A DNA stretch of 51,889 bases from Thermoplasmata archaeon (GTDB taxonomy: Archaea; Thermoplasmatota; Thermoplasmata; Lutacidiplasmatales; UBA184): assembly GCA_027315455.1 (NCBI GenBank), contig DAHUXZ010000014.1, positions 1-51,889 of the forward strand, read 5' to 3'. Shown here piece after piece: positions 1,701 through 33,425 of this stretch (positions are counted from its first letter, which is position 1; each line of letters starts with the position of its first letter). Below the pieces are notes generated by a model. It was given only the letters and a program-made list of their open reading frames with translations, had not been told where the DNA came from and did not search any database. Both the position numbers and the translations under genes were made by a program.

Positions 1701-2587
1701 TCACCGGTCGAGGAAGACGCACCGGCCGCCGACCGCGTCTGTCGCCCGCCGTGGTGCAACGGATCGTCCGCACCACCACCTCCGATAAGCCTCGAGGTGA
1801 GACCCACTGGTCGACCCGAACGCTCGCCCGACACCTCGATGTGAGCCACATCACGGTCCAGCGGATCTGGACCGAGCACGGACTCCAACCCCTTCGGACC
1901 CGGTCGTTCACGCCGAGCAAGGACCCGCGGTTCGTGGAGAGACTCATCGACGTGAGGGGGCTCTACATGAACCCGCCCGAAAGGGCGGTCCTCTTCAGTG
2001 TGGACGAGAAGCCCCAGGTGCAGGCGCTCGAGCGGACCCAAGCAGTCCTCCCGATGGCGGAGCAGTGGCCGGAGGGCCGACCCCACGACCATCGACGCCA
2101 CGGGACGGTCGACCTGTACACGGCGTTGAGTATCCTCGATGGCAAGATCACCCACGCGTTCTACCCCCGCCACCGTCACCAGGAGTTCCTTGCGTTCCTG
2201 CGGATCTTGGACTGCCCGGTCCCCGGCGGACTATCGGTCGAGGTGGTGCTCGACAACCTGAGCGCTCACAAGACCAAGGAGGTCGAGCGGTGGCTGCGAC
2301 GGCACCGAAGCTTCCACGTCCACCTCGTACCGACCGGGTCGTCGTGGGTGAACATCGTCGAAGGCTGGTTCGCCCAGCTGGAGGAGAAGGCAATCTACCG
2401 AGGGAGCTTCCCGAGCGTCCCGGCGCTTAAGGTGGCGATCAAGGGGTTTGTCACCGCGAGCGATGGCCACGCCGAGCCCTGGGTCTGGACGAAGGACGTG
2501 AACGCCATCCTCAGGAAAGTCGCGCGAATCCGCCAGCGGATGGGCCTCCCACCGTCAATATCGCATCCGTCAGTTACGGCGCGCTAG
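1700..2587 (+). pseudogene. IS630-family transposase, 5'-truncated
   Basis: The frame is open from 1700 and gives about 295 residues of an IS630-type DDE transposase. It begins in the linker that normally follows the N-terminal helix-turn-helix region (TGRRPRLSPAVVQRIVR), so roughly the first hundred residues of a normal protein are missing. The catalytic region is intact: first Asp in LFSVDEKPQV, second in VVLDNLSAHK, and the acidic third residue in NIVEGWFAQLEEKAI. A GTG at 1751 is the first usable start but lacks the DNA-binding domain. A TAA at 1697-1699 precedes the homologous part. It is best read as the remnant of an insertion sequence; I could not identify terminal inverted repeats. 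Confidence 0.85.
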
Positions 2588-29846: not shown

Positions 29847-30776
29847 CTACCGGCGCGTGGGTTGGGCCCGCGCCGAGTTCAGCAGGATGAGCGTGACGCC
29901 GCCGAGCACGACCGCCACTCCGGCGACCTCCCAGGCCGTGAGGGGCTCGCCGAACGCCCCCGAGCCGAGGGCGACCCCGACCAACGGAACGAGATAGGCG
30001 ACGACGTTGGCGCGCACCGGCCCGACGCGATGGTGCAGCGCGAAGTAGGCGAAGTAGCCCAGGATGGAGGACAGAAGGACGAGGGCGACCAGGGACAACA
30101 GCACGCCGGGGACCGCGGGGACCGTGAGCGGGAGCCGGAGCGCGACGGCGCCTCCGCTCAGGAGCAGCGAGGCGATGCCGAACTGGATGCCGATCTGCCA
30201 CAGACCCTGCCGGCCCCGACCGACCCGGCGCAGGAGGACCGTTCCGACGGCGGTGCTGAGCATCGCGGCGAGGACGAAGACCGGCCCCTGCCAGGTCCCG
30301 ATGGGCGAGCCGGTGAGCTGGGGCAGCACGAGGATTACGGCGCCCACGAATCCGACCCCCATCCCCGCAAGGCCCAATGATCCGAGCCGCTCGGACCGAA
30401 GGAGCCCGTAGCCGAACGCGACCGTGAGGAGCGGGGCGGTGGAGGCGAGGACCGCCGCGTATCCTCCCGAGGCGTACTGTTCGCCCCAGTAGAGGAGCCC
30501 GCCGTAGAGTCCGATGATGAGGACCCCGCCGACCCCCGCGGACACGACCGCTTCCCGGCGGGCGGGGAGCCGCTCCCGGGTCGCCGCGGCGAGCGCCGCG
30601 AACCCGGCGGCGCTCAGCGCGTACCGGGCCGAGGCGAAGGCGAGCGGAGACGCGCCCAGGAGGAGGCCCTCCCGGATCATGACGTAGGCCGCGCCCCAGA
30701 CGAGGCTGACCGCCGCAAGGAGGGCGAGATCGCGCGGTGCGAACCGGGCGGGGGAGGATCCGCTCGGCTCGCTCAC
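29847..30776 (-). CDS. DMT superfamily (EamA) transporter
   Basis: A 309-residue membrane protein with ten hydrophobic segments arranged as two EamA repeats (first starting LALLAAVSLVWGAAYVMI, second TWQGPVFVLAAMLSTAVG). It ends in VLGGVTLILLNSARAQP. EamA carriers export metabolites, amino acids or drugs. The GTG at 30776 was chosen as the start just before the cytoplasmic leader. It lies 43 bases downstream of the M29-like gene on the same strand, so it is probably cotranscribed. Confidence 0.88.
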   Translation of the reverse strand: MSEPSGSSPARFAPRDLALLAAVSLVWGAAYVMIREGLLLGASPLAFASARYALSAAGFAALAAATRERLPARREAVVSAGVGGVLIIGLYGGLLYWGEQYASGGYAAVLASTAPLLTVAFGYGLLRSERLGSLGLAGMGVGFVGAVILVLPQLTGSPIGTWQGPVFVLAAMLSTAVGTVLLRRVGRGRQGLWQIGIQFGIASLLLSGGAVALRLPLTVPAVPGVLLSLVALVLLSSILGYFAYFALHHRVGPVRANVVAYLVPLVGVALGSGAFGEPLTAWEVAGVAVVLGGVTLILLNSARAQPTRR

Positions 30777-30819
30777 GGTCCCCCCACCCTCGCTTCCCGC
30801 GCCCCGGACGGCCGGGGCG

Positions 30820-31926
30820 CTACACCAGCCGTCCGCCACGGATGACGGTGGCCCCGTCGAGCGCGATCTCCGCGCCCGCGAGCGAGAACCACGTGAAGAA
30901 GCTCGAGCGGTTCGTTCCCCCGAGCCCCCGGTTCCCTCCGATCTGCAGCGTGGCGCAGCCGCGCTCCAACTTCTCCAGGTTGGGAACGTCGCGGACGGAC
31001 GGGTTCAGTCCGAAGGTGAGCGCGCTGGCCCGGTCCTTGCCGGCCGTGGCGGCCGCGTACTGGCGCGCGAACTCCTCTCCTCCTGCGTCGAAGGAGGACG
31101 CGGTGAGCTTGCCGTCCGCGAACTCGAGCGTCGCCCCGGCGTGCCAGTTCCACCAGATGTTCGTCCGGCGGTTGGCACGAAAGGTCCCCTCTGCGGTCCG
31201 GGAATCGAGGGGGAGGTCGACGACGCCGGCGGGGATGTTCGTCAGCATGCCCGACAGGGAGTCCTTCTTGGTCCACGGATGGGGTCGTCCGTCCTGAACG
31301 CGCGGAGCGGCCCCGGCGAACGCGACCTCGAGGTCGGTTCCGTTGGGGTGGGTGATCCGCGCCTTCTTGGCGCGGGAGAGCGCCCGGGAGAGCCGGGCCC
31401 CGCTCTTGGCGATCTCCTCGGGGTCGACGAGGGATGCCCGCAGGATGCTCTCCTCCCACCGCCGGAGGTCGAGGCCCCACTGGCGGGCCCGTCGCTCCGT
31501 CGCGAACCCCGTGGTCATGCGCACTCCGCGGAGTCCCGTCTTCCGGGCGACCGCGTACCACGGCCAGTTCCAGTCGAAGGCGTCGTTGGCGCGGTCCGGG
31601 AACGTCTCGAGGCGGTCGGTGTCGCCCGGACCCCAGAAGTTCACATACACGTCCGCGGCCTTCAACGCCGCCCACTCCGGCTCGCTCGACTGGCCGAGAA
31701 GTCGGCTCTGCTTGCGGTCGATCGCGCGCCACCACGCGTTCTCGTCGTTGTGAACGAGAAGGGCCTTGCCGCCGACGCGGCGTATCTCGTCGATCATCGC
31801 CGAGGCCATCGGCAGGGTGTGGTCCCACGACTCGACGATCGCGTTCTCCCCCGTGCGGACCTTGAGGTACTGGGTCACGATGTGACGCGCCGCATCGCGC
31901 TGCCGCTTCGAGGGGGTTTCCGGCAT
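30820..31926 (-). CDS. M29-like aminopeptidase, metal-ligand residues apparently lost
   Basis: A 368-residue protein with the overall layout of M29 (thermophilic, AmpS/AmpT) aminopeptidases: N-terminal alpha/beta part around RHIVTQYLKVRTGENAIVES, then SGMLTNIPAG at about 225-234, LEFADGKLT, and a C-terminal NRGLGGTNRSS...IALDG part. In active M29 enzymes two zinc or cobalt ions are held by Glu after the NIP-x-G motif, another Glu, a His in an HIALG-type strand, and a His-x-Asp pair. Here NIPAG is followed by Val, the HIALG strand reads TLQIGG, and the His-x-Asp region reads FFTWFSLAG. The family fold seems kept but the metal site does not. The promoter TATA box uses the stop codon region of the MarR-like gene. 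Confidence 0.7.
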   Translation of the reverse strand: MPETPSKRQRDAARHIVTQYLKVRTGENAIVESWDHTLPMASAMIDEIRRVGGKALLVHNDENAWWRAIDRKQSRLLGQSSEPEWAALKAADVYVNFWGPGDTDRLETFPDRANDAFDWNWPWYAVARKTGLRGVRMTTGFATERRARQWGLDLRRWEESILRASLVDPEEIAKSGARLSRALSRAKKARITHPNGTDLEVAFAGAAPRVQDGRPHPWTKKDSLSGMLTNIPAGVVDLPLDSRTAEGTFRANRRTNIWWNWHAGATLEFADGKLTASSFDAGGEEFARQYAAATAGKDRASALTFGLNPSVRDVPNLEKLERGCATLQIGGNRGLGGTNRSSFFTWFSLAGAEIALDGATVIRGGRLV

Positions 31927-31949: not shown

Positions 31950-32573
31950 CTATAAACCGACCTTTCGTCCGAGGCGAAGACCCTCGGTCCCGGCCCCCCT
32001 TCGTCGGGCGGTTCGAGCCCGACGCGAACGCCCCGTCGGCCCCGCGTACCCCGGTCGTGGCGGAAGTTCCGCGGACGGCTTCCCTCGCGGGATCGACCCG
32101 GCCCGGCTACGCCGGATGGTCGCGCCGAGATCGGGAGCGGGTCCCGCGGAAGAGCGTCGGCCCGGCGAGCCGTCGCAGGGCGACCTATCGACGATGCGCC
32201 GCAGAAGGTCGTTCCGCCGATGCAGCTCCCTGCGACTCCACGATACGAACGCCGGGGCCGACTCGGCGACGACGGCCCGCCGAAGCTCTTCCACCCGGCT
32301 TCGACCTTTCTTCGTCGCCTCCAGGTAGACTACCCGCCGGTCCGTCGTGCTCCGCTCGCGCCGGGCGAGACCTTCGGCCTCCAGCTGGTCCACGAGTCCC
32401 GTGATGTTCCCCGTCGTGACCCGCATGGACCGAGCGAGGTCCTTCGTGGTACACCGTCCGGCCCCGACGAGGCTCCGGAGGACGACGAATCGCCGCATGG
32501 AAAGCCCTCGATCGCCCAGGGCCTTGCGAAATCGCGCGTGCACCGTGAAGGAAGCACCACGGAGGTTGTGCAC
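31950..32573 (-). CDS. MarR-family transcriptional regulator with long C-terminal tail
   Basis: A 207-residue protein whose first 140 residues form a MarR winged helix: dimer helix at the N terminus, RRFVVLRSLVGAGRCTTKDL, recognition helix region RSMRVTTGNITGLVDQLEAEG, and wing DRRVVYLEATKKGRSRV. MarR proteins bind palindromic sites and respond to small ligands. The last 60 residues are Arg/Gly/Pro-rich and unlike the family, suggesting loss of the original stop or a low-complexity tail. The GTG start is supported by AAAGGAGG five bases upstream. It is divergent from the truncated reductase (18 bases apart) and lies upstream of the M29-like gene. Confidence 0.8.
   Translation of the reverse strand: MHNLRGASFTVHARFRKALGDRGLSMRRFVVLRSLVGAGRCTTKDLARSMRVTTGNITGLVDQLEAEGLARRERSTTDRRVVYLEATKKGRSRVEELRRAVVAESAPAFVSWSRRELHRRNDLLRRIVDRSPCDGSPGRRSSAGPAPDLGATIRRSRAGSIPRGKPSAELPPRPGYAGPTGRSRRARTARRRGAGTEGLRLGRKVGL
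31951..31956 (-). promoter_or_regulatory. TATA box of the M29-like gene, overlapping the MarR stop codon
   Basis: Minus-strand TTTATA(G), centred 27 nt before the ATG at 31926. The last codons and TAG stop of the upstream regulator gene supply the sequence. Confidence 0.6.
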
Positions 32574-32591
32574 CAACGCCTCCTTTAGGGG

Positions 32592-33425
32592 ATGGGGGGT
32601 CGCTTCGCGCGCGCGCTGGTCCGACCCGGCAGCGACTCGACCCGCCTCGAGGCGAAAGGGGTCGAGGTCGTTCGGGGGGACCTGACCGTTCGTGCCTCGC
32701 TGAACGGCCCGCTGGCGGGCGTGAGCGCGGTCATCACCACGGCCGCCGGCTATACGGGCCGGCGCCGGGGCGATTCGCTCGCTACCGTGGACCTCGAGGG
32801 GAATCGTAACCTCGTCGAAGCGGCCGCGGTGGCCCGCGTACCCCGGTTCGTGTTCACGAGCATCCTGAAGTGCGATCCGGCGCCCGGGGGGCCGCACTTC
32901 TGGACGAAAACGCTCATCGAAGATGCGCTGGAGTCGAGCGGCGTCCCCTTCGTCGCGCTCCGACCGGGAGCGTTCATCGTCCCGCCCGGATCCGGCGGGG
33001 ACTTCGGGTCGAAGGGCCTGAGGCGGGGACGACTGCGCTCGTCCGGACCCCGGAACGTGCCGTGGACATGGATCCACATCGATGACGTGGCGCGCGCCCT
33101 CTCGCTCGCGGTCGACGCCCCGGACGTCACCGGGAAACGGATCGACCTGGGTGCGGACCGCGCCGTGTCGATGAACGAAATGGCCTCGGCGTTCTCCCTC
33201 CTCCTGGGCCGACCGATCCGGGCGGTGGGGATGGGGGCATTCGGCGCTGGGATGGGCCTCCTTTCCGTCGTCAGCCACCGGATGAGGGACAGGAACGCGA
33301 TGGTCGCCTTCTTCGCCTCGGGCAAGTATGTGGCGGACACCACCTCGCAGGCCGCCGGGCTCGGGCCGGTCCCATCGCTCGAGGATTCGCTCCGACGCTA
33401 CGCGAAGAGCGCCGGCCTCACCTGA
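32592..33425 (+). pseudogene. NmrA-like NAD(P)-binding reductase lacking its N-terminal Rossmann motif
   Basis: A 277-residue atypical SDR/NmrA protein. Present are the second-strand region ALVRPGSDSTRLEAKGVEVV with the RGDL motif, ITTAAGY, the VPRFVFTSI strand, and a substrate domain with LRPGAFIVPPGSGG and HIDDVARALSLA. Absent is the usual start with beta strand and the Gly-x-x-Gly-x-x-Gly cofactor loop, which should precede RALVRPGSD by about 30 residues. An in-frame TAG at 32586-32588 and the regulator gene start 18 bases away leave no space for it. So the 5' end has been deleted and the product is unlikely to bind NAD(P) normally. Confidence 0.65.

Follow-up and report, generated by a model that had tools for sequence, protein, structure and literature searches.

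A clade of archaeal M29-fold proteins without metal ligands and its possible turn to binding or sensing

The window analysed here, i.e. the whole stretch of 51,889 nucleotides from contig DAHUXZ010000014.1 of a Thermoplasmata archaeon (Lutacidiplasmatales; GenBank assembly GCA_027315455.1), exhibits an ORF (P0001) whose sole Pfam match is PF02073 (Peptidase_M29). The match scores 28.3 bits, barely over the threshold of 27, and P0001 is the only one among nine window proteins scanned to give it. The archaea of the window's family are presumably inhabitants of acidic soils. Table 1 lists the gene, its neighbours and the positions within it that are discussed below. The adjoining gene for an EamA-type transporter overlaps the end of the P0001 gene, yet it stands beside no orthologue examined, and an operon of the two was rejected. 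No recurrent neighbour of the protein's own subfamily was found at the orthologue loci examined. Elsewhere in the window (1751-2587, plus strand) lies a gene for an IS630-family transposase with a DDE_3 match and intact DDE residues, the first helix-turn-helix part being absent from the ORF.

Table 1. Genes around the P0001 locus and positions of interest within the P0001 gene (window coordinates)
Feature	Position	Strand	Basis
P0001 (368 aa), ligand-less protein of M29/NicX fold	30820..31926	-	ORF/translation; PF02073; profile matches 1zjc, 4icq, 2ayi, 7cn3
EamA-type transporter, adjoining downstream gene	29847..30839	-	Pfam, orthologue-locus comparison
MarR-family regulator, upstream open frame (start position approximate)	31953..32588	-	Pfam
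NmrA-like NAD(P)-binding protein, divergent	32592..33425	+	Pfam
N-terminal domain stretch, residues 32-136, clade-conserved	31519..31833	-	Column frequencies, 119 clade versus 33 canonical sequences
V235 codon, aligned with the Glu of NIPxGE, first metal ligand in M29	31222..31224	-	MAFFT and hhalign
A302 codon, aligned with the Glu of LGE, second Glu ligand in M29, and with NicX His265	31021..31023	-	MAFFT, hhalign, NicX alignment
T326 codon, aligned with the His of the HxAxG strand, first His ligand in M29	30949..30951	-	MAFFT and hhalign
R333 codon, catalytic Tyr column, seven residues past the lost His	30928..30930	-	Counted on alignments
T345-W346-F347 codons, columns of His-x-Asp	30886..30894	-	MAFFT and hhalign

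Searched as a single sequence, P0001 gave zero matches in the PDB, and zero matches were also obtained in NCBIfam. A profile built from 24 relatives matched the aminopeptidases AmpS (PDB 1zjc, E-value = 1.9e-14), PepS (4icq/4icr, about 5e-14) and AmpT (2ayi, 1.5e-8), as well as the dioxygenase NicX (7cn3, 1.4e-7). A profile-profile comparison by hhalign with 11 canonical M29 proteins exhibited a probability of 100 (E-value = 1.4e-50) over 344 columns at 21% identity. The AlphaFold model of P0001 is poor (pLDDT 53.9, pTM 0.45, with an input alignment of 8 sequences), and Foldseek retrieved with it only eight matches at E < 0.001, all of them M29/NicX chains at a TM of about 0.3. The fold claim therefore rests on sequence profiles, according to which P0001 is a remote M29-fold protein. 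The family landmarks pointed out in a preliminary description of this DNA are present in the translation: the NIP-x-G motif (NIPAG at 230-234), the glycine/asparagine turns (GLNP and GGN...GGTN) and IALDG near the C-terminus.

According to the consulted parts of the reports on two Listeria enzymes (PMC7023490, PMC4661694), the M29 residues E, E, H, Y, H and D are each required for activity. All six are replaced in P0001: the two glutamates by V235 and A302, the two histidines by T326 and T345, the tyrosine by R333 and the aspartate by F347. For the five ligand columns, the same P0001 residues were obtained from a MAFFT alignment with 166 relatives and from hhalign. The preliminary description had noticed the Val after NIPxG, the missing His of the HIALG strand and the Thr-Trp-Phe in place of His-x-Asp, and both alignment methods agree with it on each; the losses of the second Glu and of the catalytic Tyr come in addition. 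Its proposal of a catalytically dead M29 relative that arose by substitution and not by truncation is likewise well supported as regards M29 and NicX chemistry. The same description regarded other Glu, His or Asp residues in the metal site as evidence against such a loss. No other His has taken up a place there: the two alignments fill the ligand columns otherwise and there is no conserved His around the old site, by which displaced ligands were rejected. The His residues of the C-terminal domain are all conserved at <=45% in the family, with the exception of H193 (71%), which is located before the ligand motifs. The Fe(II) ligands of NicX, given as His265, Ser302, His318 and Asp320 in the part of the NicX report consulted (PMC7910607), correspond to A302, Q328, T345 and F347 of P0001 in a mapping counted by hand on the profile alignment. 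Judging from these alignments, neither the known M29 chemistry nor that of NicX can operate in its known way in P0001.

The P0001 gene is genuine and evolves under purifying selection, with pN/pS values of 0.31-0.50 against seven intact orthologues. Another orthologue (L038:4920-6110, plus strand) exhibits one in-frame stop and is either broken or mis-sequenced. Relatives of P0001 were found in 45 of the 61 genomes searched, namely its own genome, 35 of 36 other genomes of the genus and nine of 24 more distant ones, with up to seven matches per genome, fragments among them. The sole member of these 36 without any family match is G019, a genome rated 97% complete.

The preliminary description had left it undecided whether the substitutions are peculiar to one sequence or common to close homologues. 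They are common to the whole clade, as all 121 aligned proteins of the window's archaeal family (two rows incomplete) lack the canonical ligand set. A wider alignment of 166 M29-like relatives, from which matches covering <=300 residues and 9 near-duplicates were excluded, contains 33 sequences with the full set (24 with EEHHD by column and 9 with the HWD motif alignment-shifted), 13 that keep one of the five ligands and 120 that keep none. Since the window protein served as query for the majority of the family rows, these proportions favour ligand-less relatives. The search with PF02073 is less biased. Carried out over 150 genomes of the class, it gave at most 50 bits among the 24 listed genomes of the window's family, whereas loci verified as canonical M29 score about 87 to 347 bits. 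P0001's own genome exhibits only two PF02073 matches, both ligand-less. Because of this gap in score, archaea of the window's family seem to have no working M29.

In a phylogenetic tree of 104 rows, built after the omission of 4 partial or short rows and of rows >=68% identical to a retained one, one branch splits the ligand-less from the canonical proteins. The same branch is obtained with a bootstrap/SH-aLRT support of 100/100 in a tree of 65 rows from which the ligand columns were removed, and in which 39 of the 78 rows of the window's family were retained. P0001 falls on the ligand-less side in the trees. Since bacterial and other archaeal members have the metal site, we infer that the direction of change was loss and not gain. 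Some ligand-less relatives from other families retain the first Glu (L161, L162, L163, L166, L167 and L169), which suggests that the metal site may have been lost in steps; a ligand-less relative in the window's own genus (L021) also retains it. Short M29/NicX-like proteins from other families of the phylum (L204, L207, L208, L209 and L211), left out of both trees, exhibit partial ligand loss too, so that such loss is not unique to this clade. A viral origin was also considered and set aside, a scan of viral contigs with P0001 having yielded no relative.

In 119 family sequences (L038 with its in-frame stop and one truncated row being dropped), the former ligand columns are variable, with entropy percentiles of 0.94, 0.93, 0.61, 0.73 and 0.72, and the adjoining scaffold residues P232, G234, G306, L307, N308, G330, N332 and G337 hardly vary, at percentiles of 0.02-0.12. 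A further set of conserved residues, mostly absent from canonical M29, lies in the N-terminal domain: R105 and R133 (each 100%), D61 (97%), R49 (95%), R136 (94%), W34 (92%), E62 (89%), E32 and W66 (each 87%), together with W123. No catalytic-looking His is fixed throughout the clade, H36 being conserved at 77%. The substrate contacts of NicX include Leu104 and His105, as stated in the consulted part of its report (PMC7910607). By their numbering these are N-terminal, and by analogy it is plausible that P0001 has retained a cleft with new contacts.

According to gene calling, the proteins of one paralogous subfamily are extended at the N-terminus by about 350 residues. Helix-turn-helix Pfam models exceed their cut-offs in three of the four fusions scanned, and the extension of one fusion exhibits 27-29% identity to plasmid IS630 transposases over 92-99% of length among the ten matches listed. 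The fused ORFs occur in 12 of 78 genus genomes (L220-L231), as open frames of 726-768 aa and one of 968. None of the 12 fusions has a complete DDE triad, three keeping one residue, and none has any M29 ligand left. In the genus, five stand-alone IS630 proteins have all three DDE residues, as do the window's own IS630 gene and three plasmid transposases. When one of a near-identical pair is removed, the mean identity among the 11 fused proteins is 48% for the helix-turn-helix part, 30% for the DDE part and 60% for the M29-like part; the helix-turn-helix and DDE parts of eight intact IS630 transposases give 52% and 60%, respectively. Thus both catalytic centres have disappeared from proteins that retain their DNA-binding and M29-like parts, and no other finding hints as strongly at a role of the M29-like domain as a sensing or assembly module. 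P0001 itself has no fused helix-turn-helix part, since Pfam gives PF02073 alone. Among other proteins of this kind in the genus, a stand-alone IS630-like protein (L237; contig C84 of genome G034) exhibits D-D-D with diverged motifs in a 415-aa frame without an M29-like part, and the stand-alone IS630 protein L233 is cut off by the contig end.

Sister subfamilies are found in conserved neighbourhoods, in which neighbours are named from the Pfam matches of one representative each. The second copy in the window's own genome (contig C11; L071:1300-6895) lies within a row of HEAT repeat, GNAT, unknown, M29-like and methylpurine-DNA glycosylase genes. The row of unknown, M29-like and glycosylase genes is found at 16 of the 26 loci listed, some of them from other subfamilies, and this HEAT-repeat/GNAT/DNA-glycosylase setting gives no pointer to amino acids. 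In another subfamily, the M29-like gene is at five of six loci listed (L083:3416-6269, also L081, L087, L094 and L101) directly downstream of the urocanase gene (hutU). A third subfamily lies near genes for argininosuccinate synthase, an ACT-domain protein and an MTHFR-like protein, with argininosuccinate synthase at all 14 loci listed (L113, L115, L116, L120, L124, L134, L135 and L137-L143). As two of the three conserved settings concern amino-acid metabolism, an amino-acid-like ligand is weakly suggested for the M29-like family.

The most likely reading, to which we give somewhat better than even chances, is that P0001 belongs to a dead M29/NicX-fold enzyme family turned into binding or sensor proteins. 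In an old clade, the metal site would have disappeared completely, and numerous subfamilies would subsequently have arisen within the window's family. The two-domain length and the scaffold of glycine and asparagine residues would have been kept with the ligand positions left free to vary, and E32, W34, D61, E62, R105, R133 and R136 would have become newly fixed in the N-terminal domain. A small molecule, probably an amino acid, a peptide or an amino-acid derivative, may then be bound in the inter-domain cleft without being hydrolysed, and a change upon binding might be passed on to an output. At least one sister subfamily could have DNA binding as its output, through the fused IS630-derived helix-turn-helix part, whose own triad has been lost. 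For the window protein, a sensor role is carried over from its paralogues, because P0001 has neither a DNA-binding part nor conserved neighbours. Between the two functions offered by the preliminary description, a binding role is indirectly favoured by the transposase-remnant fusion in paralogues, the expansion of paralogues and the variable pocket columns. A new activity, which draws on the new invariant charged and Trp residues of the N-terminal domain, ranks below the binding or sensor reading.

This new activity is nevertheless the main rival, and we regard it as possible if rather doubtful. The protein would then be a new enzyme with a probably metal-independent active site formed from E32, W34, D61, E62, R105, R133 and R136. 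In its favour, there are new invariant charged and Trp residues that most canonical M29 proteins do not have, three sister subfamilies occur in fixed neighbourhoods, one of them directly after urocanase, and NicX shows that this fold can switch chemistry. However, a catalytic-looking His fixed across the clade is absent, H36 and H193 both falling well short of invariance, and the clustering in space of the N-terminal residues is unsupported by a model with a pLDDT of 54. A fusion with a transposase remnant that has no catalysis of its own also fits sensing better.

A scaffold or partner role, for instance as the subunit of a hetero-oligomer, working by contact with other proteins instead of binding a small molecule, appears improbable. 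It would accord with the conservation of the glycines and the N-terminal domain residues alongside variable former ligand columns, but the search brought up no canonical M29 as a partner: the two PF02073 matches of the genome are both ligand-less, and none among the 24 listed family genomes comes near canonical scores (best 50 bits). Still less credible is an active M29-type metallopeptidase with displaced ligands missed by the alignments. The PF02073 match just above its cut-off and an otherwise enzymatic fold family would speak for it; the agreement of MAFFT with hhalign, the lack of a conserved His round the old site and the finding that any single loss among the six residues abolishes activity in characterised members (PMC7023490, PMC4661694, in the parts consulted) speak against it. 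A decaying pseudogene or assembly artefact, to which the in-frame stop in one of eight orthologues might point, is refuted for the family by the seven intact orthologues with their pN/pS values and by the relatives in nearly every other genus genome.

Returning to the reading of a dead enzyme family turned to binding or sensing, we tentatively extend it to a lineage-specific class of small-molecule sensors, in which the metal chemistry would have been erased and the pocket diversified among numerous paralogues, and at least one branch may have become a one-component transcription regulator composed of a dead peptidase and a dead IS630 transposase of which the DNA-binding part alone was retained. 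If true, this would be a new type of regulator for archaea that are known mainly through metagenomes. A large family of dead peptidases with an intact fusion of two dead domains offers a testable case of enzymes turned sensors. In practical terms, a PF02073 match alone leads to the label of aminopeptidase and thereby to inflated peptidase counts in these archaea. Searches of the open-licence literature by title and start of abstract returned nothing on inactive M29 proteins, on M29 expansion in Thermoplasmata or on domesticated IS630 in archaea, and nothing relevant on pseudoenzyme regulators, which is weak evidence of absence. In the part of the Lutacidiplasmatales genome paper covered by a term search (PMC9287336), neither M29 nor aminopeptidase is mentioned.

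Among known systems, the M29 aminopeptidases (AmpT, AmpS and PepS; PF02073) resemble P0001 in length, in the order of motifs, in NIPxG, in the GxN and GG turns and in the IxxDG end. P0001 differs from them by the replacement of all six metal and catalytic residues, and its clade by the new invariant residues of the N-terminal domain, at an identity of about 21%. With NicX (2,5-dihydroxypyridine 5,6-dioxygenase), P0001 exhibits a kinship of fold at the profile level that includes the GxNxxxGGK stretch and the C-terminal strand; in contrast, the positions of the four Fe(II) ligands carry Ala, Gln, Thr and Phe. The comparison with IS630-family transposases applies only to the fused sister subfamily and not to the window protein, and that subfamily differs from them in having lost the DDE triad in all 12 fusions and in being joined to a dead M29-like part.
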